Below are positions 3,725 through 22,099 of a DNA stretch of 32,814 nucleotides, piece by piece. The notes beneath the pieces were generated by a model that was given only the letters and a program-made list of their open reading frames with translations, was not told the origin of the DNA and searched no databases. Origin of the DNA: Burkholderiaceae bacterium (lineage in GTDB: Bacteria; Pseudomonadota; Gammaproteobacteria; Burkholderiales; Burkholderiaceae_C); assembly GCA_031285125.1 (NCBI GenBank), contig JAITWT010000074.1, forward strand, positions 1 through 32,814, in the 5' to 3' direction. The position numbers and the translations under genes were made by a program. The stretch's first letter is position 1. Each line of letters begins with the position of its first letter.

Positions 3725-3750
3725 TTGCATTGGAAGATTTTCTTCCGCAA
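3725..3750. promoter_or_regulatory. Inverted repeat in the hupS upstream region, candidate activator site
   Basis: A perfect 6-bp inverted repeat, GGAAGA-TTT-TCTTCC (3732-3746), is flanked by TTGC on the left and GCAA on the right, making an imperfect longer palindrome with a 3-nt asymmetry. It lies about 140-165 bp upstream of the sigma-54 element, where an NtrC-family activator such as HoxA normally binds. There is no T-tract after the arms, so a hupT terminator is less likely. Confidence 0.4.
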
Positions 3751-3762
3751 ATCATTCCATTG
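3750..3762. promoter_or_regulatory. Possible IHF site between activator region and sigma-54 promoter
   Basis: AATCATTCCATTG matches 12 of 13 positions of the IHF consensus WATCAANNNNTTR. It lies in an AT-rich stretch between the candidate activator palindrome and the -24/-12 element, as expected for a DNA-bending site at a sigma-54 promoter. IHF dependence is known for hupSL promoters in Rhodobacter. Here it is inferred from the motif only. Confidence 0.35.
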
Positions 3763-3888
3763 TGATTGATTAATTTCCAGTTCAGCACCGCACAGACGCG
3801 CCGACCTGCCGGGCACGCCCAAAAAAACGTCATTGATTCAAGCACTTCAGGCCACTGGCGTTAGGACTTTCCCTAATTCCCTTAAAAA

Positions 3889-3903
3889 TGGCTCACAACT
3901 TGC
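3889..3903 (+). promoter_or_regulatory. Sigma-54 (-24/-12) promoter of the hupS operon
   Basis: TGGCTCACAACTTGC matches TGGCAC-N5-TTGC with one mismatch in the -24 half, and the invariant GG and GC are at the exact family spacing. The transcription start would fall near 3915, leaving about a 70-nt leader before the hupS ATG at 3985. Sigma-54 control with an NtrC-type activator is established for the membrane-bound hydrogenase promoter of Ralstonia eutropha, and the adjacent hupUVT sensor genes agree. No comparable sigma-70 element was noted in the spacer. Confidence 0.85.
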
Positions 3904-3984
3904 GTAATATCAGGAGTGCGTACAAAACGTGCGCCTTGAAATTTGCGGAAGCAAATCAATCGCCAACAAATAGCGGAGATACCG

Positions 3985-5109
3985 ATGGAATCGTTCTATC
4001 AAGTCATGCGCAATCAGGGCGTATCCCGGCGCAGTTTCATGAAATTTTGCAGCTTGACAGCCACGGCCATGGGATTGGGGCCGGCCTTTGTGCCGCGCAT
4101 CGCCGATGCACTGGAAAACAAGCCGCGTACGCCCGTGCTATGGCTGCACGGATTGGAATGTACTTGTTGCACCGAATCGTTCATCCGCAGCGCGCACCCG
4201 CTGGCCAAGGACGCGATTCTGTCCATGATTTCGCTCGATTACGACGACACCATCATGGCCGCCGCGGGGCACCAGGCCGAGGCCATCCTCAACGAAATCA
4301 CCACCAAATACAAGGGCAACTACATCGTCGCGGTGGAAGGCAATCCGCCGCTCAATGAGGACGGAATGTTCTGCTTCCCAGGCGGCGAGCCGTTCGTGGA
4401 AAAGCTCAAGCGCGTGTCGGCCGATGCCCAAGCCATCATCGCCTGGGGCGCTTGCGCGTCGTGGGGCTGCGTGCAGGCGGCCAAGCCCAATCCGACCCGC
4501 GCCACGCCGGTGGCCGAGGTGATTCGGGACAAGCCCATCATCAAAGTGCCGGGTTGCCCGCCGATTCCTGAGGTGATGGCGGCGGTGGTGACTTATCTGG
4601 TGACATTTGGACGCATTCCGCCGCTGGACCGCCAGGGCCGTCCCAAGATGTTCTATGGGCAGCGTATCCACGACAAGTGCTACCGCCGTCCGCACTTTGA
4701 CGGCGGCCAATTCGTCGAAAGCTGGGACGATGAGGGCGCCCGCAAAGGCTACTGCCTGTACAAGATGGGCTGCAAGGGTCCGACCACTTACAACGCCTGC
4801 TCGACCGTGCGCTGGAACGGCGGCGTTTCGTTCCCGATCCAGTCCGGCCACGGCTGCATCGGCTGCTCGGAAAACGGGTTCTGGGACAAGGGTTCGTTCT
4901 ACGACCGGGTGGTGGACATCAACCAGTTCGGGGTCGAAAGCAATGCCGACAAAATCGGGCTGACGGCCGTCGGCGTTGGCGCCGCTGCCGTGGCGGCGCA
5001 CGCGGTGGTCAGCGCCATCCGGAGCACCACGCTCAACAAGCGCAGCTACCAGCAGCCCGACCGCAAGAAGCCGGCTGACCAAACTCAACCCGAGGAGACA
5101 CGCCAATGA
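3985..5109 (+). CDS. hupS: Oxygen-tolerant uptake [NiFe] hydrogenase small subunit HupS/HoxK
   Basis: The ATG at 3985, behind CGGAGA, gives 374 aa; the track's TTG start at 3943 is not needed. The Tat signal is SRRSFMK (residues 14-20), with likely cleavage after residue 42 (ADA/LEN). Six proximal-cluster Cys are visible: C59, C61 and C62 in LECTCC, C157 and C162 in CASWGC, and C191 in PGC. With 42 subtracted these equal mature positions 17, 19, 20, 115, 120 and 149, the [4Fe-3S] set of oxygen-tolerant group 1d enzymes. The distal and medial clusters use [19 protein letters not shown] and [15 protein letters not shown]-terminal hydrophobic helix ([18 protein letters not shown]) anchors the protein periplasm-side. 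It relays electrons from HupL to HupC. Its stop overlaps the hupL start. Confidence 0.97.
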
Positions 5110-6893
5110 GCACGCAAACACAGGGATTCACGCTGGACAACAGCGGCCGCCGTATCGTTGTCGATCCGGTCACGCGCATCGAAGGGCATCTGCGCTGCGA
5201 GGTCAATCTCGATGGCAACGACGTCATCACCAACGCGGTGTCCACCGGCACCATGTGGCGCGGGCTGGAAGTCATCCTCAAGGGGCGCGACCCGCGCGAT
5301 GCCTGGGCGTTTACCGAGCGCATCTGCGGTGTCTGTACCGGCACCCATGCGCTGACTTCGGTGCGCGCGGTCGAGGACGCGCTGGGCATCAAGATTCCAG
5401 ACAACGCCAACCTGATCCGCAACCTGATGCAAGCGGCCCTGCAAGTGCACGACCACCTGGTGCACTTCTATCACCTGCACGCGCTCGACTGGGTCGATGT
5501 GGTTTCCGCGCTGTCGGCCGACCCCAAAAAGACGTCCGAACTGGCACAAAGCATTTCGGACTGGCCGCTTTCGTCGCCGGGCTACTTTCGCGATTTGCAG
5601 TCGCGCCTGAAGCGCTTTGTCAATTCGGGGCAGTTGGGGCCGTTTCGCAATGGCTACTGGGGCCACCCGGCCTACAAGCTGCCGCCCGAGGCCAATTTGA
5701 TGGCGGTGGCCCATTATCTGGAGGCGCTCGATTTCCAGAAGGAAATCGTCAAAATCCACACCGTCTTCGGCGGCAAGAACCCGCACCCGAACTGGCTGGT
5801 CGGCGGCGTGCCATGCGCCATCAATGTGGATGACGTCGGCGCGGTCGGCGCCATCAACATGGAGCGGCTGAACCTGGTCTCGCAGATCATCGACCGCCTG
5901 ATCACTTTTACCGATCAGGTCTATCTGCCCGATGTGGTGGCCATTGCTTCTTTCTACAAAGACTGGACCTTCGGCGGCGGTCTGTCCGGCAAGTGCGTGC
6001 TCGCATATGGCGATTTCCCCGATATCGCCAACGACCACAGCCCCAAGAGTCTGCTGTTGCCCACCGGGGCGATCATCAATGGCAATTTCAATGAAATCCA
6101 TCCGGTCGATCTGCGCAACCCGGAGGAAATTCAGGAGTTCGTCGCCCATTCCTGGTACCGCTACCCGGATGGCGTCAAGGGCCTGCATCCCTTCGATGGT
6201 GTGACCGAGCCGCATTTCGAGCTGGGTAAAAACTTCAAGGGCACCAAGACCAAAATCGAGAACCTGGACGAAGCGGGCAAATATTCGTGGATCAAGGCGC
6301 CGCGCTGGCGCGGCAACGCGATGGAAGTTGGGCCGCTGGCGCGCTACATCGTGGGCTATTTCCAGAACCGTCCCGACATCAAGGAGCCGGTCGATGCGCT
6401 GCTGGCCAAGCTCCAATTGCCCACCAGCGCACTGTTCTCCACCGTCGGCCGTACTGCGGCGCGCGCTCTGGAATGCCAGTGGGTGGCCTACAAGATGCGT
6501 TATTTCTTCGACCGCCTGATCAGCAACATCAAAAACGGCGATACCGCGACCGCCAACGTTGAAAAGTGGAACCCGGAGACCTGGCCCGCCGAGGCCAAGG
6601 GCGTGGGCTTCACCGAGGCGCCGCGCGGCGCGCTGGGACACTGGATCAAGATCAAGAACAAGCGCATCGAAAGCTACCAGTGCATCGTGCCAACCACCTG
6701 GAACGGCAGCCCGCGCGACGAGTCCGGGAAGATCGGTGCGTTCGAGGCCAGCCTGATGAATACCAAGATGGCCAAACCCGATCAGCCGCTGGAAATCCTG
6801 CGCACGATCCACAGCTTCGACCCTTGCCTGGCCTGCTCGACTCACGTGATCAGCGCAGCCGGCGAGGAATTGGTCAACGTGCAAGTGCGCTGA
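5106..6893 (+). CDS. hupL: Uptake [NiFe] hydrogenase large subunit HupL/HoxG
   Basis: The ATG at 5106 overlaps the hupS stop (ATGA); the protein is 595 aa, normal for the family. The Ni-Fe site is bound by [10 protein letters not shown] (C74, C77) and [10 protein letters not shown] (C574, C577, H580). After His580 a 15-residue tail, [15 protein letters not shown], remains; this is the peptide removed by the endopeptidase HupD once nickel is inserted. The subunit has no signal of its own and would be co-exported through Tat with HupS. It oxidises H2 at the periplasmic face and passes electrons through HupS to cytochrome b. The sequence around the N-terminal motif resembles group 1d membrane-bound hydrogenases such as HoxG and HyaB. 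Confidence 0.97.
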
Positions 6894-6914
6894 GCGCAAG
6901 AAACGGGGGATGTC

Positions 6915-7637
6915 GTGAGCAAAGCACGCAAAACCTACAGCTACGATGGCAGCACGGCCTTGCGCATACAGGGCCAGACGGTCACGTCGGTCTATGTCTA
7001 TGAGGCGCCCTTGCGTATATGGCACTGGGTCACCGTGCTGTGCGTATTCACGCTGTGCGTCACGGGTTACCTGATCGGCAAACCGTTGGCTTCCCTGCCC
7101 GGCGAAGCCAGTGCGCACTTCCTGATGGGCTATATCCGCTTCGCCCATTTCAGCGCCGGTATGGTGCTGGCGGTGGGTCTGCTGTTTCGCATCTACTGGG
7201 GCATCGTGGGCAATACCTACGCACGCGAGATATTCATCGTGCCGGTATGGGATCCGCAGTGGTGGCACGAATTTTTCTACGAGTTGAAGTGGTACCTGTT
7301 CATCAAGCGTTTCCCGAGGAAGTACGTCGGCCACAACCCGGTGGGGCAGATCGCCATGTTTTTCTTCTTCGTGTTCGCGATCCTGATGTCACTGAGCGGC
7401 TTGGCCCTGTATGGTGAAGGTCTGGGTCATGACAGTTGGATATGGCACACCTTTGGCTGGGTGGTTTCACTGACCGGCGGTAACAGCTTGGCGGTGCACA
7501 GCTGGCATCGGCTGGGCATGTGGGCCATCGTCATGTTCATCATGGTGCACGTCTATGCCGCCGTTCGCGAGGACATCATGTCCAAGCAAACCCTGATCTC
7601 GACCATGATCAGCGGCTTTCGCATGTTCAAGAACTAA
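6915..7637 (+). CDS. hupC: Ni/Fe-hydrogenase cytochrome b subunit HupC/HoxZ
   Basis: It starts at GTG 6915 behind a GGGGG ribosome-binding stretch and gives 240 aa. Four hydrophobic segments are visible, near IWHWVTVLCVFTLCVTGYL, FAHFSAGMVLAVGLLFRIYW, QIAMFFFFVFAILMSLSGLA and GMWAIVMFIMVHVYAAV. Conserved His for two b hemes are in WHW, FAHF, HSWHR and MVHV. The family is the di-heme membrane anchor that takes electrons from the HupS distal cluster and reduces quinone. Its place directly after hupL, 21 bp away, is the standard order. The alternative ATG at 6910 is out of frame. Confidence 0.95.
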   Translation: MSKARKTYSYDGSTALRIQGQTVTSVYVYEAPLRIWHWVTVLCVFTLCVTGYLIGKPLASLPGEASAHFLMGYIRFAHFSAGMVLAVGLLFRIYWGIVGNTYAREIFIVPVWDPQWWHEFFYELKWYLFIKRFPRKYVGHNPVGQIAMFFFFVFAILMSLSGLALYGEGLGHDSWIWHTFGWVVSLTGGNSLAVHSWHRLGMWAIVMFIMVHVYAAVREDIMSKQTLISTMISGFRMFKN

Positions 7638-7651
7638 GGCGGGGTTCTCGC

Positions 7652-8284
7652 GTGACCGTGGCACAGACCCCAGCCAGCATCGTCGTCTTGGGCATCGGCA
7701 ACGTTTTGTGGGCCGACGAAGGTTTTGGCGTGCGCGCAGTCGAAGCGCTGCATCAGCGCTGGCAGATGCCCGCGCACGTCTCCCTGGTCGATGGCGGCAC
7801 GCAAGGTTTGGCCTTGCTGCCGCTGGTGGAATCCGCTGAACGGCTGATCGTGCTCGATGCCCTCGATTTCGGACTGCCCCCCGGCACACTGCACCAGGTC
7901 GAAGGCGAGGATGTGCCCGCCACCCTGCAAGCGCGCAAGATGAGCCTGCACCAGACCGGGTTCAATGACGTGCTGGCGCACGCCAAACTCAAAGACCAGT
8001 ACCCGCGCGAAATCGTGCTGATCGGCGTGCAGCCGGTTGAACTCGACGATTACGGCGGCAGCCTGCGTCCACAAGTCAAAGCACGCTTGGATGAAGCGGT
8101 GGCGCGGGCATGTGACGTGCTGCGCCGCTGGGGCGTCGAGCCGGCGCCGCACACGCAAGCACCGCCGCCGTTGTCCGTCAATCCGGGATTGGAATTGGCG
8201 CGCTACGAAGCCGAGCGGCCCACCGAGCAAATGGCCGCGCGCGGGGGCGATGCGCGCTTCTGGCGGTCCATGCCGAAGTCCTGA
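7652..8284 (+). CDS. hupD: Hydrogenase maturation endopeptidase HupD/HoxM
   Basis: The likely start is GTG 7652 (V-T-V-A-Q-T), 14 bp after hupC; GTG 7658 is an alternative, and the track's 7520 start overlaps hupC. The product is about 210 aa. VLGIGNVLWADEGFGVRAVE is the N-terminal signature with the nickel-sensing Glu; VLDALDFG and MSLHQTGFNDVL carry the further Asp and His ligands used by HyaD/HybD-type proteases. The enzyme removes the C-terminal peptide of HupL after nickel insertion, and HupL here has such a 15-residue tail. The C-terminal stretch after about residue 165 is Pro-rich, longer than in minimal homologues and of no clear function. Confidence 0.93.
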   Translation: MTVAQTPASIVVLGIGNVLWADEGFGVRAVEALHQRWQMPAHVSLVDGGTQGLALLPLVESAERLIVLDALDFGLPPGTLHQVEGEDVPATLQARKMSLHQTGFNDVLAHAKLKDQYPREIVLIGVQPVELDDYGGSLRPQVKARLDEAVARACDVLRRWGVEPAPHTQAPPPLSVNPGLELARYEAERPTEQMAARGGDARFWRSMPKS

Positions 8285-8309
8285 ACCCAGAGAGAGAGAG
8301 ATCCCATAG

Positions 8310-8618
8310 ATGTGCATCGGCATCCCCGCGCTGGTCGAGCGTTGCGAGGGCGCTTATGCCCTTTGCCGCACGCGCGATGGCTTGTGCCGCGTCGATTTGG
8401 CGCTGACCGGCCCGGTCTCCGAAGGCCGTTGGCTGCTGGTATTCCAGAACGCGGCGCGCGAATGCATCGACGCGCAGCAGGCGCGTCAGATCGACGCAGC
8501 GCTCGATGCGCTGGCCGCCATCGCCCAAGGCCAGCCCCTGGACATCGACCGTTTTTTCCCCGACCTGGCCAACCGTGAGCCGCAATTGCCGCCGCACCTG
8601 CAAGCGCAGTTGAAATGA
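8310..8618 (+). CDS. hupF: HypC-family hydrogenase chaperone HupF/HoxL
   Basis: This 102-aa protein begins MCIGIPALVERCEG, with the essential Cys at position 2 of the HypC/HupF family. It is longer than HypC (81 aa, also in this window) through a C-terminal extension ending PPHLQAQLK, as in HupF/HoxL. In the family it is a dedicated chaperone of the large subunit, proposed to help deliver the Fe(CN)2CO unit or protect HupL under oxygen. The upstream ribosome-binding region is an unusual GA run (AGAGAGAGAGA). Its stop overlaps the hupG start. Confidence 0.92.
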   Translation: MCIGIPALVERCEGAYALCRTRDGLCRVDLALTGPVSEGRWLLVFQNAARECIDAQQARQIDAALDALAAIAQGQPLDIDRFFPDLANREPQLPPHLQAQLK

Positions 8619-9046
8619 ATAGGCCCTCTATGTCCACACTCCAGGCCGCTGTGCCACTGACCCAAACCGGCCTGCGCGATCGTCTGCTGGCGCGCGGCTA
8701 CCGCGAAATCGACGCGCAGCAACTGGATGCGCTGGCGCAGGATGTTCCGCGTCTGATCGTGCTGCCGCTGGACAACCCCGAGCGTTTTTCAGAACTGGCC
8801 GACATCATGGTGATCCTGCCCGAGGTGCTGCGCCAGTTCCCGGACGGTTGTTTTCAGGTGGCGTTTTGCAACCCCGCTTCATCGGCGGCGCTGTGCCAGC
8901 GTTTTTCGGTCTACCGGCACCCGGCACTGCTCTTTTTCCACGATGGCGCCCACACCGGCACACTGGAAGGGCTGATGGATTGGAGCGATTACCTGCGTGA
9001 ATTTGCCGCCATGCTGAACAAATCCCCCTCCAAGGAGCCGATGTGA
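8615..9046 (+). CDS. hupG: Thioredoxin-fold hydrogenase accessory protein HupG/HoxO (HyaE family)
   Basis: The product is 143 aa from ATG 8615, which overlaps the hupF stop; ATG 8630 (MSTLQAAVPL) is an alternative start. Segments such as FQVAFCNPASSAALCQRFSV and YRHPALLFFHDG fit the HyaE/HupG family, which adopts a thioredoxin-like fold but lacks the CxxC redox pair, as here. HyaE-type proteins bind the small-subunit precursor with its Tat signal and are thought to guard cluster assembly before export. HupS here carries that Tat signal. Function is known only by family, and the exact mechanism is unsettled. Confidence 0.88.
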   Translation: MNRPSMSTLQAAVPLTQTGLRDRLLARGYREIDAQQLDALAQDVPRLIVLPLDNPERFSELADIMVILPEVLRQFPDGCFQVAFCNPASSAALCQRFSVYRHPALLFFHDGAHTGTLEGLMDWSDYLREFAAMLNKSPSKEPM

Positions 9047-9936
9047 CCGACCTGAGCCGCTCATTTCCCATTCCGGTGGTCACGGTTGGCCCGGGCTCTC
9101 AACCTCCAGAAGAGGAGGCGCAGGACTTCGACTTTCTGCCCTTGCCCAACGCTGTCGATACCTTCAACGCGCCGCCCGTCATCTCCACCAGCACCGCGGC
9201 CAAGGCGCCGGTGCTGGCCTTGCTCAGGCAAGCCGTGCTCGCGCTGCAAGACACCGCGCGCGCGCGCGCCGGCGCCGTCGTGCTGCCGGTGCAGGGCCTC
9301 GATCATGAAGCGCAGGCGCTGCTGGCCCAGGTCATGGGCGAAGGCGAAGTCTCGGCCCAGATCGGTCTGCCCGACGGCCGCTCGCTGCAAATCCAGGAAA
9401 CCGTCTATACCGGCATCTGGCGCGTGCTCGAATTGGACGTGGCTGGGCGCGTATGTGCCGATCATCTCGAGGTCGCCAGCGTACCCGCCGCTGTCACGCG
9501 CGAAGCGGCGCGAGCCAGCGCCATGCATGCCCAGTCACCGCCGGTGCAGGGGCATGAACTGATCAATGGACCTTCCATCGCCAGCGAAATCATCGCCGCG
9601 CACGAAGCGGCCGTGGCCAGCGATGGCGCGCACAGCCACGTCGTCAACTTCACCTTGTTGCCCGTCACCGCGGACGACATGGCCTGGCTCAACCGCATGA
9701 TCGGCGGCGGCCCGGTCGGCATTTTTTCGCGCGGCTACGGCAAATGTGTGGTCACTTCCACCGGGTTGCGGCACGTCTGGCGCGTGCGCTATTTCGATGG
9801 CATGAACAAGACACTGCTCGATACGCTGGAAATTACCCGCGCCCCCGAAGTGGTGCAGGCCGCCGCCGAGGATCTGGCCGATACGCGTGAACGTCTGCAC
9901 GAATTGATCACATGGCTGGAGCGTGACGATGTTTGA
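9043..9936 (+). CDS. hupH: Hydrogenase expression/assembly protein HupH/HoxQ (HyaF family)
   Basis: It starts at GTG 9043, overlapping the hupG stop, and is 297 aa. The C-terminal half (SHVVNFTLLPVTADDMAWL, GGGPVGIFSRGYGKC, VWRVRYFDGMNKTLLDTLEI) matches the HupH/HyaF family. These proteins work with HupG on small-subunit maturation in oxygen-tolerant hydrogenases, by family evidence. No transmembrane segment or cofactor motif is evident, and a single Cys sits in RGYGKC. A Pro/Glu-rich N-terminus of about 50 residues seems less conserved. The end overlaps hupI by 8 bp. Confidence 0.9.
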   Translation: MTDLSRSFPIPVVTVGPGSQPPEEEAQDFDFLPLPNAVDTFNAPPVISTSTAAKAPVLALLRQAVLALQDTARARAGAVVLPVQGLDHEAQALLAQVMGEGEVSAQIGLPDGRSLQIQETVYTGIWRVLELDVAGRVCADHLEVASVPAAVTREAARASAMHAQSPPVQGHELINGPSIASEIIAAHEAAVASDGAHSHVVNFTLLPVTADDMAWLNRMIGGGPVGIFSRGYGKCVVTSTGLRHVWRVRYFDGMNKTLLDTLEITRAPEVVQAAAEDLADTRERLHELITWLERDDV

Positions 9937-10147
9937 AGGCAGTTACCTGGGCGATGCCAGCGGGCTGCGTCCCGAGAGCCGGCTCGAATGCAAGATTTGC
10001 TGGTGGGTCTATGACCCGGCCCAAGGCGATCGGCAATGGGGCATCCCGCCCGGCACCCCCTTCGCCAGCCTGCCGCCGCATTGGCGCTGCCCGGTGTGCG
10101 ATGGCGAGCCCGAGCAATTTATGGTTGTGGCGGATTCGCAGTCCTGA
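9929..10147 (+). CDS. hupI: Hydrogenase-associated rubredoxin HupI/HoxR
   Basis: This small protein of 72 aa starts at ATG 9929; the track's GTG 9923 adds only two residues. Two knuckles, CKICWWVYDP and CPVCDG, supply the four Cys of a mononuclear rubredoxin Fe site. It is encoded inside the hup operon and overlaps hupH. In Ralstonia and Rhizobium homologues the rubredoxin is needed for hydrogenase formation in the presence of oxygen, probably during assembly of the special proximal cluster. That agrees with the six-Cys HupS in this window. Confidence 0.94.
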   Translation: MFEGSYLGDASGLRPESRLECKICWWVYDPAQGDRQWGIPPGTPFASLPPHWRCPVCDGEPEQFMVVADSQS

Positions 10148-10156
10148 GAAGTTGCG

Positions 10157-10621
10157 ATGCTGCCGCCCCACAACCCCGCGCATCAACTGGAAGCCGTTTT
10201 CCGCCGCATCGGCGCCGAGCGCATGCACGACCTGCCTTTTCTGAACGACCGGCTGAGCGTTGAAGCCGTCGGCTTTCGCCTGTGGCAGCAAAGCTGGCCC
10301 GGCGTGCTGGTGACGCCCTGGGGGATCAATCTGCTGCAATTGCCCACCCCCGAGCTGCCCTTTCCTGCGGTGCGCGCCGACGCGCTGGTCGAAGTGAGCT
10401 TGCCCGGCGGCGTGGTGTCCTTCATGCCCGCACACGAAAAACAATTGGGCGATTACCGGATGTGTTCGCTGTACTCGCCCGCGCAGCAATTCACCGATCA
10501 TGAAGCCGCCCGGCTCACCGCGCAGCACGTCATGACCTTGCTGTTTCCCGAGAGCCCAGGCGATTCGGACCACGCAGGCCAGCCCCCCGACCGGGGGCGC
10601 CGGCGTTTTCTGGGGTTATGA
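10157..10621 (+). CDS. hupJ: Hydrogenase assembly chaperone HupJ/HoxT (HybE family)
   Basis: The 154-aa protein starts at ATG 10157, nine bases after hupI. The body (MHDLPFLNDRLSVEAVGFRLW, GVLVTPWGINLLQLP, LPGGVVSFMPAHEKQLGDY, YRMCSLYSPAQQF) fits the HybE/HupJ family of small-subunit chaperones that delay Tat export until the partner subunit is ready. Position between the rubredoxin and hupK is conserved in known clusters. The C-terminal 20 residues are Arg/Pro-rich and probably flexible. Confidence 0.88.
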   Translation: MLPPHNPAHQLEAVFRRIGAERMHDLPFLNDRLSVEAVGFRLWQQSWPGVLVTPWGINLLQLPTPELPFPAVRADALVEVSLPGGVVSFMPAHEKQLGDYRMCSLYSPAQQFTDHEAARLTAQHVMTLLFPESPGDSDHAGQPPDRGRRRFLGL

Positions 10622-10633
10622 CTTTCTAGGGCG

Positions 10634-11713
10634 ATGAATATGCCAGATGCATCCCCCGCTTCAGCCCTTGCCGTCGAGCAGCCCGTGCGCGTGCGCTTGC
10701 TCTGCGCGCACGGTCGGGTGCGGCGCGTGGACGCGGCATGGCGGCGCTTGCCGGTCGAGCAGTTGTGGATGGGCCGGCAGGCGCAAACGATCGAGCCGGT
10801 CTTGAGCCGTATCTTGACGGTTTGCCTGCAAGCCCACCTGGGCGCGGCGCAACAGGCGGTTCGGGCGGCCTTGCGCGCGCCGCCCGAACCGCCCGCCCCG
10901 GACGGGGACACGCTGCCAGCCATCGATACCCGCATCCGCCTGGAAGCGGCGCGCGATACGTTGCGCCGCTGGCTGCTGGACTACCCGCGCGTCTTCGGGG
11001 GCGTCTGGAACCAGAACGCGCTACGTGCCTGGCAAGGCATCAACGGCACCGCCGCGCTCGCCGCGTACTGTCGCATGTACGTCTTCGGCATGAAGCCCGA
11101 TGCTTGGCTGGCGCTGGACGAGCCGGCGCTGAGCGTCTGGATCAAGACCGGGGCCGCGCTGCCGGCGCGCTGGCTTCGATCGGGCTTGTTCGAACCGCTG
11201 CGCCGCACCTTGCTGCCGCCGTCCGTCAACCTGCTTGAATGGGCCACGGCACACGCCCATGAACTGCTGCACGGCGGCATGCCCACGCCCGCGCCGCCCC
11301 ATGCGCAATCCGACACAGTGCCGAGCCAGCGCAACCTGCCCAGCGCCTTGCTGCTGCACCGGCTGCGCCGGCTGGCGCAGGCTTGCAGCGACACGGCCAT
11401 GCGCACGCATGGCGGCTTGCGCAACGCGGATATCGGCATCGGCTGGGCGCGCACAGCGCGCGGGCTGCTGCTGCATCTGGCACGGGTTGAACAGGGCCGC
11501 GTGAGCGCTTATCGCATCCTGCCGCCGACGCTCTGGAACACAGCGCCCGGCGGAATATTGGCGTCTGCGCTGACCGGGCTGGAAAGCGCCGAGGCCGAGC
11601 GCAGCGCCCAGCAATTGCTGTTGCTGCTCGACCCGTGCGCACCGTTCGAGATCACACTGGCGCAGGAAACATTGCCGCCCGCCGAAAACACCGGAGGCGT
11701 TGGCCATGCATGA
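10634..11713 (+). CDS. hupK: Large-subunit-like hydrogenase maturation scaffold HupK/HoxV
   Basis: The 359-aa protein starts at ATG 10634 behind AGGGCG. Its C-terminal part echoes HupL: YRILPPTLWNTAPGG resembles the HupL segment around PTTWNGSPR, and LLLLDPCAPFE recalls the DPCxxC motif with only the first Cys kept. The N-terminal Ni-binding motif is absent. HupK/HoxV is regarded as an assembly scaffold that holds the Fe(CN)2CO unit before transfer to the large subunit. This is family knowledge and was not tested here. The middle region is Ala/Arg-rich and weakly conserved. The 3' end overlaps hypA by 8 bp. Confidence 0.86.
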   Translation: MNMPDASPASALAVEQPVRVRLLCAHGRVRRVDAAWRRLPVEQLWMGRQAQTIEPVLSRILTVCLQAHLGAAQQAVRAALRAPPEPPAPDGDTLPAIDTRIRLEAARDTLRRWLLDYPRVFGGVWNQNALRAWQGINGTAALAAYCRMYVFGMKPDAWLALDEPALSVWIKTGAALPARWLRSGLFEPLRRTLLPPSVNLLEWATAHAHELLHGGMPTPAPPHAQSDTVPSQRNLPSALLLHRLRRLAQACSDTAMRTHGGLRNADIGIGWARTARGLLLHLARVEQGRVSAYRILPPTLWNTAPGGILASALTGLESAEAERSAQQLLLLLDPCAPFEITLAQETLPPAENTGGVGHA

Positions 11714-12047
11714 AATGTCGCTGGCCGAATCGATCCGCGACCTGATCGAGACACAGGCGCGCAAGGAGCGTTTTAACCGTGTCCGCACCGTGGAATTGGA
11801 AATTGGTCAGCTTGCCAGTGTGGATAGCGCGGCATTACGCTTCGCGCTAGACATTGCCCTGCGCGGCACCCCGGCCGACGGCGCCGAATTGGTGATCGCC
11901 GAGCCCGCCGGGCAAGCGTGGTGCATGCACTGCGCGCGCACGGTGGAACTGGCCCAGCGCGGCGACGGCTGCCCGGCTTGCGGCGGCTACCAGTTGGCCG
12001 TGACCGGCGGCGACCAGATGCGCGTATCCGGCCTGCTGGTCGATTAA
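11706..12047 (+). CDS. hypA: Hydrogenase nickel metallochaperone HypA
   Basis: The start is ATG 11706 because HypA must begin MHEMSL, where His2 is a nickel ligand; the track's TTG 11700 adds two residues and is rejected. The length is 113 aa. The zinc site is two CxxC pairs, WCMHC and CPAC. HypA takes nickel with HypB and inserts it into the large subunit after the Fe unit is in place. It overlaps hupK, so the hup and hyp genes are transcriptionally continuous. A 47-bp spacer with a tandem repeat separates it from hypB. Confidence 0.95.
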   Translation: MHEMSLAESIRDLIETQARKERFNRVRTVELEIGQLASVDSAALRFALDIALRGTPADGAELVIAEPAGQAWCMHCARTVELAQRGDGCPACGGYQLAVTGGDQMRVSGLLVD

Positions 12048-12048
12048 T

Positions 12049-12072
12049 CGCTATTGAGTAACCGCTATTGAG
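12049..12072 (+). repeat. Tandem 10-bp direct repeat in the hypA-hypB spacer
   Basis: CGCTATTGAG occurs at 12049-12058 and again at 12063-12072, 14 bp apart, just after the hypA stop and before the hypB ribosome-binding site. It may be a simple duplication. No regulator is known to use it, and no promoter is evident. Confidence 0.7.
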
Positions 12073-12094
12073 ATTTAACTTCAGGAGAAAACTT

Positions 12095-12925
12095 ATGTGC
12101 CTGACCTGCGGCTGCGGAACAACCCATACGCACACCCACGAGCATGACCACGAGCATGACCATGCGCACGATCATGCGCATGAGCATTCCCACGGCCATC
12201 CCCACACGCACGCCAAATCGGATGGCCGGCGCCTGTCGCTGGAGCAGGACATTCTGGGCGAGAACAACCGCTACGCCGCCGCCAACCGCGCGCGCTGGCA
12301 AGCGCTGGGCGTATTTGCGCTGAATCTGGTGTCCAGCCCCGGTTCGGGCAAGACCAGCGTGCTGGTGCGCACCATCGAAGCGCTGCGCGACCAAATGCCG
12401 CTGGCGGTGATCGAGGGCGACCAGCAGACCGCCAACGACGCGCAGCGCATCCTGGCCGCCGGCGCGCCCGCGATCCAGATCAACACCGGCAAAGGCTGCC
12501 ATCTGGAAGCGCACGGCGTGGGCCATGCGGCCGAAGCGCTGCCGCTGTCGGCCGGCGCGCTGCTGCTGATCGAAAACGTGGGCAACCTGGTGTGCCCGGC
12601 GGCGTTCGATCTGGGCGAGGCGCACAAGGTGGCGGTGCTGTCGGTGACCGAAGGCGAGGACAAGCCCATCAAGTACCCTGACATGTTCGCTGCCGCCGAC
12701 GTGCTGCTGCTCAACAAAATTGACCTGCTGCCCTATGTCGATTTCGACGTGGCGCGCGCCTTGGCCTATGCGCGCCAGGTCAACCCGGGCATCCGCGTGT
12801 TCCAGCTTTCGGCGCGCAGCGGCGAAGGCATGGCCCACTGGCTGGGCTGGCTGCGCGAGGGCTGCCAGCAAGCGCGCCAAGCCCTTCCGCAACCGCCGCA
12901 TGGCGTGGCCGCAGTCCATGCTTGA
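12095..12925 (+). CDS. hypB: Hydrogenase nickel-insertion GTPase HypB with His-rich nickel-storage region
   Basis: The ATG at 12095 follows CAGGAG and yields 276 aa beginning MCLTCGCG, the N-terminal CxxCGC metal site; the longer frame from 12068 lacks this logic. A His-rich stretch ([20 protein letters not shown] and on to about residue 43) alternates His with Asp/Glu/Thr/Ala and should store nickel. The P-loop SSPGSGKTS lies near residues 80-88, with [16 protein letters not shown] and the G-domain body after it. The GTPase drives nickel transfer with HypA. The stop lies inside the hypF start region. Confidence is high. Confidence 0.97.
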
Positions 12926-15299
12926 ACGGCGGCAACTGTGGGTCACCGGCTGCGTGCAGGGCGTGGGATTCCGTCCTTTCGTCTGGCGCAAGGCGACCCA
13001 GTTGCAACTGGCTGGCGAGGTCTGTAACACGGCGCGCGGCGTGCTGATCGACGTGCAGGGCGAGCGCGGCAGCCTGCAGGCGCTGGAAGCGGCGCTGCGC
13101 TGCGATCACGAGCTGCCGCCGCTGGCCCGCATCGACGGCATCAGCGCCAGCGATGCATCACCACGCGGCAACTGGCAGGGCTTTGCCATCGTCGGCAGCC
13201 GCGACGACGGCAGCGCCACGGCGGCTATTCCGGTCGATACCGCGGTGTGCGCGGCTTGCGTGACGGAACTGTTCACGCGCGCCAACCGGCGCTGGCGGCA
13301 CCCGTTCATCACCTGCACCGATTGCGGCCCGCGCTTCACGCTGGCTTGGCGCACGCCCTACGACCGCGCCAACACCAGCATGGCGGCCTTCGAGATGTGT
13401 CCGGACTGCGCGCGCGAGTATCACGATCCGGCCAGCCGGCGCTTCCATGCCGAACCGATCGCCTGCCCGCGCTGCGGGCCGCGCCTGGTTTTCGAGGACT
13501 GGCGCGCCCCGGCGGCCGCGCAAGATACGGCCGCACAAGAGCCCCCCGCGAGGAGCGATCCCATCGAAGCGGCATGGCGCTTGATCGAGGCCGGCGGCAT
13601 CGTGGCGGTGCAAGGGCTGGGGGGCTTTCACCTGCTGTGCGACGCGCGCCAGCCGGATGCCGTGGCGCGCCTGCGCCAACGCAAACACCGCCCGGCCAAG
13701 CCGTTCGCCACGCTGACGCTGAACACCGCTTCGGCGGCGCGCTGGGTCCATCTGGACCCGGCCGACATCCCTTTGCTCGAAAGCGCGCAGCGCTCCATCG
13801 TGCTGCTGCCCCTGCGCGAACAACGCTCCGGCGCGTTGCTGCACGTCGCCCCGGGCCTGCGCCAACTCGGGCTGATGCTGCCCAGCACACCGATTCACTA
13901 CCTGCTGTTTCACGCCGCGCTCGGCCAGCCGCAAGGGCAGGATTGGTTGAATGAAGCGCACGATTTGATTTGGGTGGCCACCAGCGCCAACCGCTCCGGC
14001 CAACCGCTGCTGATCGACCCGGCCCAGGCCAGAAGCGAGCTGGCCGGCATTGCCGACGCCATGCTCTGGCACGACCGCGCCATCGCCGCGCGCTGCGACG
14101 ACAGCGTCCTCCTGTCACGCGGTGGTCGCGCCGGCGCACTGTGGCTGCGCCGCGCGCGCGGCCAAGTGCCGCTGCCGATAACGCTGCCGCGCCCCGGCCC
14201 GGCGGTGCTGGCGCTGGGCGGCTATCTGAACAACTGCTTTACCGTCACGCAGGGGCGCCAAGCGTGGGTTTCGCAACACATCGGCGACCTCTCCAGCGCC
14301 GCCGCGTGCGACGCGCTGGAAACCACGGTGCAGCGCTGGCTGGACTACTGGCGCATCGTGCCGCAGGCCGTGGTGTGCGACGTGCAGCCCGACATCCATT
14401 CCAGCCGCCTGGCCGCGCGCATCGCGCAGCAACGCGCGCTGCCGCTGCTGAGCGTGCAGCACCACCACGCCCACGTGGCCGCTGTGCTGGCCGAACACGG
14501 ATGCGACGAACCCGCCCTGGGACTGGCGCTGGACGGCTTTGGCCTGGGCCAAGACGAGGACGGAAGCGGCAACGCCTGGGGCGGCGAACTGCTGCGCCTG
14601 GAGCGGGGCCGCGTTGAACGCTTGGGCCACCTCAGCGCGCTGGCGCTGCCCGGCGGCGACGCGGCGGCCCGCGCGCCCTGGCGCATGGCGCTGGCGCTGC
14701 TGCATCGGCTGGGCGAGCGAGAGCGTTTACCCGCAGGCGTCGACGCGCAAACCGCCGCGCGCGTGCGTCAGCAAATCGAGCGCGATTTCAATTGCCCGCA
14801 AACCACCAGCCTGGGGCGCTGGTTCGATGCGGTGGCCGGGCTGGCGGGCATTTGCCCGAATCAAAGTTATGAAGGCGAAGCGGCCATGAGGCTGGAGGCG
14901 CTGGCCGAGCCGGTGACGGCTGACGGCGTGGACCCCTCACTCTGGCATGTCGACGGCCTGCGCCTGGACCTGCTCCCGCTGGCCGCGCGCCTGATTCAAG
15001 TGGACGACGCCGCGGTCATGGCCCGCCTGTGGCACGCCGCGCTGTCGCAAGCGCTGGCCGATTGGATCGCTCAGGCGATGCAGGCCACCGGCCTGCGTAC
15101 CGTCGCACTGGCGGGCGGCTGCTGCGCCAACCGGCTGCTGGTGCAAGGTCTGGCCGATGCGCTGGCCGATACGCCTTGCCGCCTGCTGCAAGCGCGCCAG
15201 TTGCCGCCCGGCGATGGGGCCTTAAGTCTGGGGCAGGCGTGGGTGACTGTGCAGCAGTGGGCCGATGCGCCGTCTTCTTTTTCTCTGGAAAGGTCTTGA
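12918..15299 (+). CDS. hypF: Carbamoyltransferase HypF (cyanide ligand synthesis)
   Basis: The chosen start is ATG 12918 ([21 protein letters not shown]), giving 793 aa; ATG 12900 is an in-frame alternative, and the track start at 12720 lies deep in hypB. Domains in order: acylphosphatase ([11 protein letters not shown]); two zinc-finger pairs ([33 protein letters not shown]); a YrdC-like domain ([21 protein letters not shown]); and a Kae1-like C-terminal domain ([34 protein letters not shown]). The enzyme makes carbamoyl-AMP from carbamoyl phosphate and loads the HypE C-terminal Cys. The order hypA-B-F-C-D-E matches Ralstonia. It overlaps hypB by 8 bp. Confidence 0.96.
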
Positions 15300-15302
15300 A
15301 CC

Positions 15303-15548
15303 ATGTGCCTAGCCATGCCGGTTGAGGTCATCGAGCTGTTGCCGGAACAGCGCGCGCGCATCAGCGTCGATGGCGTTTCGCGCGAGATTTCTCTTGCGCT
15401 GGTGGACGATGTCGCGGTGGGCGATTTCGTGCTGCTGCACGTGGGCTATGCCATCGGCAAGCTCGACCGGGCCGAAGCCGACCAAACGCTGCGCGCCCTG
15501 GCCGAGCTGGCCACCATAGTGGATCAACCCGAAGGCAGCGCCGCATGA
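15303..15548 (+). CDS. hypC: Hydrogenase maturation chaperone HypC
   Basis: This 81-aa protein starts three bases after hypF and begins MCLAMPVEVIEL, with the invariant N-terminal Cys2. It continues with the beta-barrel core (DGVSREISLALVDDVAVGDFVLLHVGYAIGKLD, quoted in part). With HypD it carries the Fe(CN)2CO unit to the large-subunit precursor. It overlaps hypD by 4 bp. A second, longer family member (hupF) is in the same operon, as usual for clusters that mature an oxygen-tolerant enzyme. Confidence 0.96.
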   Translation: MCLAMPVEVIELLPEQRARISVDGVSREISLALVDDVAVGDFVLLHVGYAIGKLDRAEADQTLRALAELATIVDQPEGSAA

Positions 15549-16684
15549 AATACGTTGACGAATTCCGCCGCAGTGACGTGGCGCGCGCGCTGGCCCAGCG
15601 CATCCACGCCGAGGTGCGGCCCGACCGCCGCTATCGCCTGATGGAGTTTTGCGGCGGGCACACGCACGCCATCGCGCGCTACGGTCTGACGGCGCTGCTG
15701 CCCGGCAACATCGAGCTGATCCACGGCCCCGGCTGCCCGGTGTGCGTGCTGCCGATCGGGCGCATCGACAGCGCCGTGCGCCTGCTCAAGGAGCGCCCGG
15801 CGGTCACGCTGTGCACCTATGGCGACGTGCTGCGCGTGCCCGGTTCCGGGGGCGAGAGTTTGTACCGCGCGCGCGCCGCCGGGGCCGACGTGCGCATGGT
15901 GTATTCCAGCGCCGACGCGCTGGCGCTGGCGCGGCGCGAGCCGGCGCGCGAAGTGGTGTTCTTCGGGCTGGGCTTCGAGACCACCACGCCGCCCACGGCG
16001 GTCGCGCTGCTGAGCGCGCGCGCCGAGGGTTTGCGCAATTTCAGCGTCTACTGCAACCATGTGCTCACCCCGCCCGCGATGGCGCATTTGCTGCAAGACG
16101 GCGGCGCCCTGCTTGACGGCTTTCTTGGCCCCTCGCATGTGAGCACCGTGATCGGCGCAGCGCCCTATCGCCCGATCGCGGTGCGCTACCGCAAGCCGAT
16201 CGTGGTAACCGGCTTCGAGCCGATCGACGTGCTGCAAGCGGTGCAGATGCTGGTGCGGCAGGTCAATGAGGGGCGCGCCGAAATCGAAAACCAGTTCACC
16301 CGCGCCGTCACGGAGCAGGGCAACCAGAAGGCGCAGGCGCTGATGGCGCAGACCCTGCAATTGCGCGCGTCCTTTGAATGGCGCGGACTGGGCAGGGTGC
16401 CGCGCAGCGCGCTGGAGATCCGGCCCGAGTTTGCCGGCTGGGACGCCGAGCAGCGCTACGACCTGCGCTCGCGCGGCGGCGCGGACGTCAAAGCCTGCGC
16501 CTGTGGCGAGATCCTGCGCGGCATCAAAAAGCCCAGCGACTGCAAAGTGTTCGCCTCCGCCTGCACCCCGGCCACCCCGCTGGGCGCGTGCATGGTGTCC
16601 AGCGAGGGGGCCTGCGCGGCGTATTACCAATACGGGCGCTTCCTGCAAAAAGAGCACCGCGCCACGGCAGGAGCGCCTGCATGA
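15545..16684 (+). CDS. hypD: Fe-S hydrogenase maturation protein HypD
   Basis: The 379-aa protein starts with ATG overlapping the hypC stop. Motifs are MEFCGGHTHAIARYG, IHGPGCPVCVLP, GFETTTPPTAV and the C-terminal cluster region CACGEILRGIKKPSDCKVF with CTPATPLGACMVSSEGACAA, which supplies the [4Fe-4S] ligands. HypD is the scaffold on which the Fe ion receives two cyanides and one CO before delivery with HypC. It overlaps hypE by 4 bp. Length and motifs are normal. Confidence 0.97.
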   Translation: MKYVDEFRRSDVARALAQRIHAEVRPDRRYRLMEFCGGHTHAIARYGLTALLPGNIELIHGPGCPVCVLPIGRIDSAVRLLKERPAVTLCTYGDVLRVPGSGGESLYRARAAGADVRMVYSSADALALARREPAREVVFFGLGFETTTPPTAVALLSARAEGLRNFSVYCNHVLTPPAMAHLLQDGGALLDGFLGPSHVSTVIGAAPYRPIAVRYRKPIVVTGFEPIDVLQAVQMLVRQVNEGRAEIENQFTRAVTEQGNQKAQALMAQTLQLRASFEWRGLGRVPRSALEIRPEFAGWDAEQRYDLRSRGGADVKACACGEILRGIKKPSDCKVFASACTPATPLGACMVSSEGACAAYYQYGRFLQKEHRATAGAPA

Positions 16685-17739
16685 ATCGCGCCAAACGCAT
16701 CGACGCCCGCCCGCTGGACTTGCGGCGGGGCCGCGTCGAACTCACGCACGGCGCGGGCGGGCGCGCCACCGCGCAACTGATCGCTGAACTGTTCGCGCCC
16801 TGCTTCGACCGCGGCGACAACCCCTGGCTGCGCCAAGGCAACGACCAGGCCATCCTGCCGCCGCCCGCGGGCAGGCTGGCGATGAGCACCGATTGCCACG
16901 TCGTCACGCCGCTGTTCTTCCCGGGCGGCGACATCGGCACGCTGGCCGTCAACGGCACCGTCAACGATCTGGCGATGGGCGGCGCCCAGCCGCTGTATCT
17001 GAGCGCGGGCTTCATCCTCGAAGAAGGTTTTCCGCTGGCCGATTTGCAGCGCGTGGCGCAGTCGATGGCGCAGGCCGCCGCCACGGCGGGCGTGCATCTG
17101 GTAACGGGCGACACCAAAGTGGTCGAACGCGGCAAGGCCGACGGCCTGTTCATCACCACGGCGGGTGTGGGCGTGGTGCCCGAGGGCGTCGCGCTGGATG
17201 GTGCCAACGCCCAGCCCGGCGATGCGATCATCGTCTCGGGCGATCTGGGCGATCACGGCATGGCGATCCTCTCGCAGCGCGAGGCGCTGGCGCTGGACAG
17301 CCCGATTGAATCGGACTGCGCCGCGCTGGGCGGCCTGGTGGCGCACATGCTCGCGCACTGCCGCTCGCTGCGCTTGCTGCGCGATCCGACCCGTGGCGGC
17401 CTGGCCAATACCCTCAATGAACTGTGCCAGCAGTCGGGCGTGGGCATGCGCATCACGGAGGCGGCCCTGCCGATCCGCCCGGCTGTGCGCGCGGCTTGCG
17501 AGTTCTTCGGTCTGGATCCGCTGTACCTGGCCAACGAAGGCAAGCTGATCGCCGTCTGCGCCGCTGATGACGCCGCCGCCCTGATCTCGGCGATGCACGC
17601 GCACCCACTCGGGCGCCAGGCCGCTGTCATCGGCGAGGTCTGTGCCGACACCCACGGTTTTGTTAGGATGACCACGCCGTTTGGCGGCGAGCGGCTGCTG
17701 GACTGGTTGCAGGGTGAAATGCTGCCGAGGATTTGTTGA
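16681..17739 (+). CDS. hypE: Thiocarboxamide dehydratase HypE
   Basis: The start at ATG 16681 (MNRAKRIDARPL) overlaps the hypD stop; the 453-aa track frame from 16378 is rejected. The product is 352 aa. The ATP-binding PurM-like fold shows HGAGGRATAQLI, GNDQAILPP, STDCHVVTPLFFPGGDIG, MGGAQPLYLS and DPTRGGLANTLNE. The C-terminus is LPRIC, the conserved tail whose Cys is carbamoylated by HypF and dehydrated to thiocyanate. It is the last accessory gene here: no hypX follows, unlike Ralstonia, so CO-ligand supply under air must come from elsewhere or another locus. Confidence 0.97.
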   Translation: MNRAKRIDARPLDLRRGRVELTHGAGGRATAQLIAELFAPCFDRGDNPWLRQGNDQAILPPPAGRLAMSTDCHVVTPLFFPGGDIGTLAVNGTVNDLAMGGAQPLYLSAGFILEEGFPLADLQRVAQSMAQAAATAGVHLVTGDTKVVERGKADGLFITTAGVGVVPEGVALDGANAQPGDAIIVSGDLGDHGMAILSQREALALDSPIESDCAALGGLVAHMLAHCRSLRLLRDPTRGGLANTLNELCQQSGVGMRITEAALPIRPAVRAACEFFGLDPLYLANEGKLIAVCAADDAAALISAMHAHPLGRQAAVIGEVCADTHGFVRMTTPFGGERLLDWLQGEMLPRIC

Positions 17740-17869
17740 GATGAAACGCCACTGTTCCTCACCTCCCCATCTCCGGGCCCCCCTTCCCGTTCAGCCCCGC
17801 TTGCGCGCAGATGAGCGGGAGGGTCGGGTTTCATGCGGCGCGGATCGCGCGCAACGCCACGAATAACCG

Positions 17870-18931
17870 ATGATCGGCCATCTCATCGCGCTCTTCAACA
17901 ACGCCAACCCCGGCGCGCGCCGCAGGCTGTTCGGCATTTACAGCGCGCTGATCGCGCTCAACGTGGCCGCCTGGCTGTGGGCGCTGATCGCCTTTCACGG
18001 CTACCCGGTGCTGCTCGGCTCGGCCCTGCTGGCCTACGGCTTTGGGCTGCGCCATGCGGTCGATGCCGACCACATCGCGGCCATCGACAACGTCACGCGC
18101 AAACTCATGCAGGAGCGCAAACGCCCCATCGCGGTGGGCCTGTTCTTTTCGCTCGGACACTCGACCGTGGTGGTGCTGGCCTGCATCGCCATCGCCCTGG
18201 CCACCACCGCGATCGAGGGGCGCTTCGAGCACTTCAAGGCTTACGGCGGCGTGATCGGCACCACGGTCTCGGGGGTTTTCCTGCTGGCGCTGGCCTTGAT
18301 GAACTGCCTGATCCTGCGCGGCATCTACCGGGCCTGGTGCAGGGTGCGCGGCGGCGGCGGCTACGTTGACGAAGACTTCGACCTGCTGCTGGCCAACCGG
18401 GGCTTGATCGCGCGGATCTTCCGCTCGCTGTTCCGCCTGGTCAGGCGCAGTTGGCACATGTACCCCATCGGCTTTCTGTTCGGTCTGGGCTTTGACACCG
18501 CGACCGAAATCGGCCTGCTGGGCATCGCCGCCATCCAGGCCGCCAAGGGCCTGTCGCCCTGGGTCATCATGGTGTTCCCGCTGCTGTTTGGCGCGGGCAT
18601 GTCGCTGATCGACACGCTCGACGGCCACCTGATGCTCGGCGCCTACGGCTGGGCCTATCAAAAACCGCTGCGCAAGATTTACTACAACATGACCATCACG
18701 CTGGTCTCGATCATCGTTGCCGTCGTGATCGGCGGCCTCGAACTGCTGGGCCTGCTGGCCGGCAAGTTCGGCCTGCAAGGGCCGGTGTGGGACGCCGTGG
18801 GCCTGATCAACGACAAATTCGGCATGCTGGGCTACATCATCATCGGCATCTTCGCCTTCAGTTGGATCGCCTCCATCGTGATCTATCGCGCCAAGGGCTT
18901 CGACAAAATGGAAGTGCTCCCTCAGCACTGA
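17870..18931 (+). CDS. hoxN: Nickel permease HoxN (NiCoT family)
   Basis: The 353-aa membrane protein starts at ATG 17870, 130 bp after hypE. The NiCoT signature HAVDADHIAAIDNVTRK is in the second hydrophobic segment, followed by GLFFSLGHSTVVVLA and GLGFDTATEIGLL, the other conserved family motifs. About eight hydrophobic segments are visible. It should import Ni(II) with high affinity for hydrogenase assembly; cobalt uptake cannot be excluded from sequence alone. In the 130-bp gap no convincing terminator or riboswitch was recognised, so it may be read through from hypE. Just downstream the coding strand switches. Confidence 0.95.
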   Translation: MIGHLIALFNNANPGARRRLFGIYSALIALNVAAWLWALIAFHGYPVLLGSALLAYGFGLRHAVDADHIAAIDNVTRKLMQERKRPIAVGLFFSLGHSTVVVLACIAIALATTAIEGRFEHFKAYGGVIGTTVSGVFLLALALMNCLILRGIYRAWCRVRGGGGYVDEDFDLLLANRGLIARIFRSLFRLVRRSWHMYPIGFLFGLGFDTATEIGLLGIAAIQAAKGLSPWVIMVFPLLFGAGMSLIDTLDGHLMLGAYGWAYQKPLRKIYYNMTITLVSIIVAVVIGGLELLGLLAGKFGLQGPVWDAVGLINDKFGMLGYIIIGIFAFSWIASIVIYRAKGFDKMEVLPQH

Positions 18932-20119: not shown

Positions 20120-20563
20120 TTAAATATCACGTAAAAGTTCGTGAAATTCCTGCGTATCTTCAAAACTGCGGTAGACCGAGGCAAAGCGCACATAAGCGAC
20201 TTTGTCCATCCGCTTGAGCTCATGCATCACCATTTCGCCGATGCGGCTGGAAGCGATTTCGCGCTGGGCCGCCGAGAGCAGCTGGTGTTCGATCCGGGCC
20301 AGCGCACGATCGATTTGTTCGACGCTGACAGGCCGTTTACGCAACGCCACCGTCATTGAGGCACGGACCTTGGCGGGATCGAATTCAGTACGGCGGCCGT
20401 CTTTCTTGACGACCGCCGGAAAGTTCACCTCGGGCCGCTCGTAAGTGGTAAAACGCTTATGACACGCGCCGCATTGGCGGCGGCGGCGAATGCAAGCAGC
20501 GTCTTCACTGACACGGGTTTCGACGACCTGCGTTTCAAGATGACCACAGAACGGGCACTTCAT
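20120..20563 (-). CDS. nrdR: Transcriptional repressor NrdR
   Basis: The 147-aa protein begins MKCPFCG. A zinc ribbon uses C3, C6, C31 and C34 (CPFC and CGAC), followed by an ATP-cone domain ([27 protein letters not shown]). It senses dATP/ATP and represses ribonucleotide reductase genes. It sits 39 bp after glyA on the same strand, a frequent betaproteobacterial pair, so it is probably co-transcribed with glyA and under the same ZTP riboswitch. Length and motifs are normal. Confidence 0.97.
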
Positions 20564-20602: not shown

Positions 20603-21847
20603 TCAACGGTAAACCGGGAAACGGCTGGTCAGCGCATGCACCTTGGCGCGTACCGCTTCGATATTGGCGGCATCGTGCGGGTTATCCAGCACATCGGCCA
20701 CCAAATTCGCCGTCAAGCGCGCTTGCTCCTGCCCGAATCCGCGCGTGGTCATGGCCGGGGTGCCGATGCGCACACCGCTGGTGACCATCGGCTTTTGCGG
20801 GTCGTTGGGAATCGCATTCTTGTTGATGGTGATGTGCGCTTGGCCCAGCGCGGCTTCGGCCTCTTTGCCGGTGATGCCCTTGGCGCGCAGATCGACCAGC
20901 ATCATGTGGCTTTCGGTGCGCCCGCTGACAATGCGCAAGCCGCGCTCGTTGAACGTCTGAGCAACCGTCTGGGCATTTTTTAGCACCTGCTGTTGGTAGC
21001 TCTTGAATTCGGGCGAGAGCGCCTCCTTGAAGGCGACCGCCTTGGCCGCGATCACATGCATCAGCGGCCCCCCTTGCAGACCGGGGAAGACGGCGCTATT
21101 GATCGCCTTCTCGTGCTGCGCCTTCATCATGATGACGCCACCGCGCGGACCGCGCAGACTTTTGTGGGTGGTGGAAGTGACCACGTCGGCGTGCGGCACC
21201 GGGTTCGGATAGACGCCCGCGGCGACCAGGCCGGCATAGTGCGCGATATCCACCATGAAGATCGCGCCGACATCCTTGGCGACACGGGCGAAACGCTCGA
21301 AATCAATACGCAAAGAATAGGCCGACGCGCCCGCGATGATGAGCTTGGGCCGCGTCTCATGCGCTTTGCGCTCCATCGCGTCATAGTCGATGGCTTCCTG
21401 CGCGTTCAGCCCGTAGCTGACGACGTTGAACCACTTGCCGCTCATATTCAGCGCCATCCCGTGCGTCAAATGGCCGCCTTCGGCCAAGCTCATCCCCATG
21501 ATGGTATCGCCGGGCTTGAGGAAAGCCAGCATCACCGCCTCGTTGGCCGAAGCGCCGCAGTGCGGCTGCACGTTGGCCGCATCGGCACCGAAAAGCTGTT
21601 TGAGGCGGTCGATGGCCAATTGCTCGGCAACATCTACGAACTCACAGCCGCCATAGTAACGCTTGCCGGGATAGCCCTCGGCGTACTTATTGGTCAGTTG
21701 CGAGCCCTGCGCGGCCATAACGGCGGGCGAGGCGTAGTTTTCACTGGCGATCAGTTCGATGTGCTCTTCCTGGCGCCTGTTTTCGGCCTGGAGGGCAGCG
21801 TAAAGTTCGGGGTCGGTCTGTTCGACCAGATGGGAGCGTTGATACAT
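20603..21847 (-). CDS. glyA: Serine hydroxymethyltransferase GlyA
   Basis: The real start is ATG 21847 ([19 protein letters not shown]), giving 414 aa; the track's extension to 21961 runs into the riboswitch and is rejected. Signatures include [55 protein letters not shown] and the PLP-lysine motif [14 protein letters not shown]. It interconverts serine and glycine while making 5,10-methylene-THF. The leader contains a ZTP riboswitch, fitting control by the 10-formyl-THF shortage signal ZMP/ZTP. The ribosome-binding site is weak (GGA about 10 bases before ATG) and lies beside CTGCCCC, which could pair with the aptamer's 3' end. Confidence 0.98.
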
Positions 21848-21901
21848 GGGGCAGTCCAGTGGTGAAAGGCTTTTGTAACTGAAACAGTACAAAGGCTGCC
21901 C
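21848..21901 (-). promoter_or_regulatory. Putative expression platform of the glyA ZTP riboswitch
   Basis: On the minus strand CTGCCC sits directly before the glyA ATG (plus 21849-21854) and is exactly complementary to GGGCAG at the aptamer's conserved 3' end (plus 21896-21901). Between them lies a hairpin, CTTTGTACTG-TTT-CAGTTACAAAG, with one bulge. Without ligand the 3' end could pair with the start region and block translation. With ZMP/ZTP the 3' end would be held in the aptamer pseudoknot, freeing the start. The complementarity is seen; the mechanism is inferred. Confidence 0.5.
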
Positions 21902-22002
21902 AGGCGAACGGCAAAACGCCAGCAACCGCCAGCGACGCACTCCCCCGTGGTGTTCCCCCACGTTGGCGCCCGGTAGGAACGCCTATCGCCAGTCGCGCGC
22001 AG
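21897..22002 (-). promoter_or_regulatory. ZTP (pfl motif) riboswitch in the glyA leader
   Basis: Read on the minus strand, the leader has in order GCGACTGGCGAT, the hairpin-plus-GGGGAG element (GTGGGGGAACACCACGGGGG followed by AGTG), and after a GC-rich linker GCCGTTCGCCTGGGCA. These match the conserved blocks of the pfl RNA: CUGGCG, GGAA-CACC-GGGGAG and the 3' GCC-N-CUGGGCA pseudoknot strand. It ends 49 bp before the glyA start, and glyA is a known member of this regulon. The class binds ZMP/ZTP and usually turns genes on. Boundaries are approximate. Confidence 0.85.
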
Positions 22003-22064
22003 GGCAAGTTTACCCGAAGCGGCCCTTGCACGAAACGCTCTGCGCGAACTGTCCACTTCAAGGT

Positions 22065-22099
22065 AAAACCCCATCCCCTGGGAAACTGGGGAATGGGGT
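22065..22099 (-). terminator. Rho-independent terminator behind the lytic transglycosylase gene
   Basis: On the minus strand ACCCCATTCCCC, a short loop, and GGGGATGGGGTTTT form a strong GC-rich stem with a short T-run. It begins 17 bases after the transglycosylase stop and lies upstream of the glyA riboswitch, so it separates the two transcription units. Confidence 0.8.

Follow-up and report, generated by a model that had tools for sequence, protein, structure and literature searches.

Judged from its sequence, the leader upstream of glyA is a genuine ZTP riboswitch, and very probably it is a translational ON switch that controls glyA, whose start site would be masked without ligand. The leader lies in a 32,814-nucleotide stretch of DNA from a Burkholderiaceae bacterium (hereafter the window). 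We infer that the aptamer binds ZMP/ZTP and that ligand turns the switch on. The genes concerned and the parts of the aptamer are:

20603..21847, minus strand: glyA, serine hydroxymethyltransferase, the putatively controlled gene (NCBIfam NF000586, 643 bits)
20120..20563, minus strand: nrdR, repressor of ribonucleotide reductase genes (NCBIfam NrdR equivalog TIGR00244, 181.8 bits)
21891..22006, minus strand: ZMP/ZTP riboswitch aptamer (RF01750; cmscan, 49 bits, above the gathering score)
21987..21990, minus strand: pseudoknot 5' partner, GGCG, within the ACUGGCG junction (sequence and RF01750 alignment)
21903..21906, minus strand: pseudoknot 3' partner, CGCC, within the P3 loop (sequence and RF01750 alignment)
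21910..21914, minus strand: P3 5' strand UUGCC (RF01750 consensus structure)

The initial annotation had recognised the pfl blocks with correct coordinates and had proposed an Infernal search with the Rfam family RF01750 (ZMP-ZTP, pfl motif). This covariance model matched positions 22006-21891 of the minus strand with cmscan over all 86 model positions, scoring 49 bits where the gathering score is 39 bits (E 3e-05 for the window alone, 5.4e-7 for the genome as a whole), and the match was unique in the 2.47-Mb assembly. The alignment shows P1-P2 with the ACUGGCG junction, the P3 hairpin and a GGCG/CGCC pair capable of forming the pseudoknot; GACUGGCG and GCCGUUCGCCUGGGCA are both there. Published structures assign GGCG its role in the pseudoknot. 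P3 is formed by UUGCC (21914-21910) paired with GGCAG (21900-21896), and the three outer pairs of P1 are non-standard in the RF01750 alignment. The aptamer ends 43 nt from the AUG of glyA, a start fixed by protein alignment with relatives, and thus occupies the 5' leader of a folate/purine gene. An extra hairpin, GGCG...CGCC, lies between the ACUGGCG junction and P2 (21987-21957, minus strand), and ACUGGCGAUAGGC...ACGUGG is common to many relatives.

The 5' side of the aptamer carries two further elements:

22007..22012, minus strand: predicted -10 element TAAACT, directly 5' of the aptamer (kept in relatives as TACACT/TAAACT)
22065..22098, minus strand: terminator-like hairpin CCCCAUUCCCC...GGGGAUGGGG-UUUU at the end of the upstream lytic transglycosylase gene (sequence; partly flagged in the terminator scan)

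Of 91 riboswitch leaders, 87 have a -10-like box, typically TACACT, immediately before the aptamer, compared with 10 of 480 control stretches, and the hairpin at 22098-22065 sets the lytic transglycosylase gene apart from the riboswitch transcript. Given the conserved box and the hairpin upstream, the leader probably starts at the aptamer, with transcription beginning near 22000 at its 5' edge. Further away in the window is a hydrogenase region (19-18931). There a histidine kinase, possibly H2-sensing, comes after a small hydrogenase subunit; the region also encodes an uptake hydrogenase, maturation genes of the hyp type and, at 17870-18931, a nickel transporter of the NicO/HoxN kind.

No intrinsic terminator candidate was found between the aptamer and the AUG on the minus strand (22006 to 21848), and in particular none that has a U run and overlaps P3, such as a transcription-terminating ZTP ON switch would have. 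This bears on a reading in which the riboswitch is mainly transcriptional, so that without ligand Rho or a non-canonical terminator would stop transcription in the leader or in early untranslated glyA and silence nrdR as well. Untranslated leaders can recruit Rho, as is generally known, and the short gap that separates glyA from nrdR holds no terminator candidate. Moreover, those ZTP switches that have been characterised act on transcription, through terminators that overlap the 3' end of the aptamer (Weinberg 2010, PMC2864571; PMC10085676). Against such a reading stand the lack of an intrinsic-terminator candidate from aptamer to AUG and the position of the complementary box, which adjoins the start codon and not a U run, and we consider it improbable.

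The predicted translational platform has three parts:

21894..21901, minus strand: GGGCAGCC, the P3 3' strand GGCAG plus CC, predicted OFF-state partner of the ribosome-binding site (local fold and shuffle test)
21849..21857, minus strand: GGACUGCCC, a weak Shine-Dalgarno GGA and the CUGCCC box, predicted to be masked when OFF (sequence, shuffle test, relatives and local fold)
21872..21893, minus strand: hairpin H4 (UUUGUACUG-UUU-CAG-U-UACAAA), apposing the P3 strand and the start site (folds and compensating changes in relatives; weak in the window, p 0.08)

As initially annotated, GGGCAG (21901-21896, minus strand) is complementary to CUGCCC (21854-21849, minus strand). The box is indeed near the AUG (21847-21845), but it does not immediately precede it, as had been stated, since one C (21848) intervenes. 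A bulged A lets the pairing extend, CC pairing with the Shine-Dalgarno GG to give an 8-bp helix (GG-A-CUGCCC, 21857-21849). As in a translational ON switch, a strand of the aptamer is complementary to the ribosome-binding site, including the Shine-Dalgarno GG, and this complementarity is conserved in relatives. P3 and the OFF helix are mutually exclusive because one strand is common to both.

In the best local fold of the stretch from P3 to the AUG, the OFF helix closes over H4 (-16.7 kcal/mol, pair probabilities 0.73-0.82). The alternative local fold, P3 with the downstream hairpin H4, gave -10.7 kcal/mol, a value that excludes pseudoknot and ligand energy. Folding the 186-nt leader likewise gave the OFF helix as part of the minimum-energy structure. 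When the 18 bases before the AUG were shuffled 5000 times, equally good pairing with the P3 strand arose in 0.5% of the shuffles. The folding energy of the whole leader was nothing unusual relative to shuffles (z about 0), and when P3 through 27 coding bases was folded, a fold other than the OFF helix was predicted to be best for the window and for several relatives. By constrained folding, the median cost of opening the start site was 5.1 kcal/mol in free leaders versus 3.6 kcal/mol with P3 forced, the drop being at least 2 in 26 of 71 leaders. Since the folding-energy statistics are uninformative and the OFF helix is not the best fold with 27 coding bases included, the case for masking rests on complementarity and comparison.

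The comparison drew on 61 related genomes, 33 of which have an RF01750 match, and on 80 named glyA loci. The 109 glyA leaders comprised 96 with and 13 without a riboswitch (covariance model, E up to 1). Of the 96 riboswitch leaders, 55 have CUGCC no more than 16 bases from the glyA start, whereas 0 of the 13 riboswitch-free genes do. For the clade of the window (Comamonadaceae by NCBI names), in which the box usually has the form (A)GGACUGCC and directly abuts the AUG, the counts were 47/53 versus 0/10. Fisher's test gave p 6e-8 for the association of box and riboswitch, a value inflated by relatedness. On the GlyA tree, riboswitch presence switches about 8 times and only 4 contrasts are well supported and independent; the box changed in the same direction in 1-2 of them and in the opposite direction in none, and the paired sign test was not significant, 4 contrasts being too few. 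Two riboswitch-free glyA genes (L050 and L079) carry apparent decayed boxes, GGACUCC and GGAUUGCC; their sequences suggest that the box decays once the riboswitch is lost.

CUGCC might instead be an ordinary conserved feature of glyA translation starts that matches the P3 strand incidentally. The glyA start region is conserved anyway and the OFF helix shows no covariation, both as this explanation would have it. However, the box is missing from all 13 riboswitch-free glyA genes, 10 of them from the same clade, and it is retained in four leaders (L009, L044, L046 and L058) in which the Shine-Dalgarno has drifted to CGA. An incidental match is therefore very unlikely.

The presence of the box varies with leader length. 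It occurs in 54 of 72 short-leader riboswitches and in 1 of 21 long-leader ones, mostly of Cupriavidus, Paraburkholderia and Oxalobacteraceae; as it is essentially absent from long leaders, their expression platform differs. In four leaders of Oxalobacteraceae and kin (L003, L086, L102 and L103), a GGCUGCC complementary to GGGCAGCC follows after about 20-30 nt. It is remote from the AUG and lacks a U run, an arrangement that looks like another, different expression platform.

With a covariance model of the OFF fold and H4, correctly placed matches were obtained in 43 riboswitch leaders, and the 10 riboswitch-free loci gave none. The window is outside those 43 because its H4 has diverged; it scores 15 bits on the model when its own leader is searched alone. 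For the OFF helix, pairing across the alignment is 99.5%, and the helix is invariant. It shows conservation and no covariation, since the aptamer requires the P3 strand and keeps it invariant. For H4, pairing is 73%, and 4 of its 6 pairs have changed on both sides, as in CCCUUG/CAAGGG, CCCCCG/CGGGGG and CCUCAC/GUGAGG. Its covariation exceeds that in all 500 shuffles, and a partner slid by +1 scores similarly because many leaders start H4 one base later.

Start-site sequestration by the riboswitch's own P3 3' strand, the core of the initial annotation, is thus upheld by the RF01750 match together with the riboswitch-linked CUGCC box, the promoter at the aptamer and the absence of a terminator candidate; the last three make a translational ON switch the best reading. 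Transcription would begin at the 5' edge of the aptamer. Without ligand, GGGCAG(CC) of the P3 3' strand would quit P3 and pair with (GG)A-CUGCCC, hiding the weak Shine-Dalgarno and the bases preceding the AUG, while H4 would keep both strands of the OFF helix together. A shortage of 10-formyl-THF would raise ZMP/ZTP, and the ligand would lock P3 and the pseudoknot. The start site would then be freed, serine hydroxymethyltransferase made and the one-carbon pool refilled.

A paper by Kim et al. 2015 reportedly defines the ZTP ligand. That paper is outside the open literature we covered, in which we found no paper describing this start-site platform. Known since 2010, the pfl class counts glyA among the five genes most often associated with it (Weinberg 2010, PMC2864571). 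The glyA leader shares the aptamer order and conserved blocks of the RF01750 class, but terminators overlap many described members, whereas here there is no terminator candidate and the start site is the competing strand. Herbaspirillum seropedicae has a ZTP riboswitch upstream of glyA, Hsnc029 (PMC7011215), of the same class, before the same gene and in the same bacterial order; however, it and the other Oxalobacteraceae loci examined have long leaders and no CUGCC box at the AUG, hence a platform unlike that of the window. In the pfl ZTP switch of Clostridium beijerinckii, an invader pairs with the P3 3' strand first and builds a terminator, and ligand blocks this (PMC10085676). Likewise, a downstream invader is proposed here to compete for the P3 3' strand, but the ribosome-binding site takes the place of the invader that forms the intrinsic terminator. 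ZTP riboswitches before glyA are thus already known, and the conserved expression platform is apparently under-described.

The nrdR gene follows glyA at 39 bp, a spacing given in the initial annotation and confirmed at 39 bases, and the gap holds no terminator candidate. The two genes are adjacent at 99 of 108 loci and at 12 of 13 riboswitch-free loci; since the pair is equally adjacent without a riboswitch, adjacency is independent of it. An effect of the riboswitch on nrdR is only possible, and masking of the glyA start could reach nrdR only through translational coupling across 39 nt or through Rho-dependent polarity. Tandem NrdR-box-like sites, GCGCTATCTATAGCGT and ACACTAGATATAGTTC, 32 bp apart from start to start (L111 1501-1550, G000:C69), lie about 210 bp upstream of the gene for the ribonucleotide reductase large subunit, and from this pair NrdR probably controls ribonucleotide reductase in this genome.

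A broader proposal is that Comamonadaceae and some relatives share a distinct, lineage-wide platform, with P3 invaded by the glyA ribosome-binding site (AGGACUGCC-AUG) itself and the covarying hairpin assisting. Under this proposal the switch would also change NrdR levels, by way of translational coupling or Rho polarity, and would thereby tie one-carbon stress to the supply of dNTPs. Taken as a whole we regard this as rather doubtful, and the link of glyA and nrdR to dNTP control would matter only if read-through control of nrdR holds. With this leader the ZTP class gains a well-supported example that is conserved across a family of bacteria and whose invader strand would be the ribosome-binding site. 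The mechanistic work on the class that we found deals with transcription-terminating members, and for competition over the P3 strand this leader would offer a compact, natural translational counterpart.
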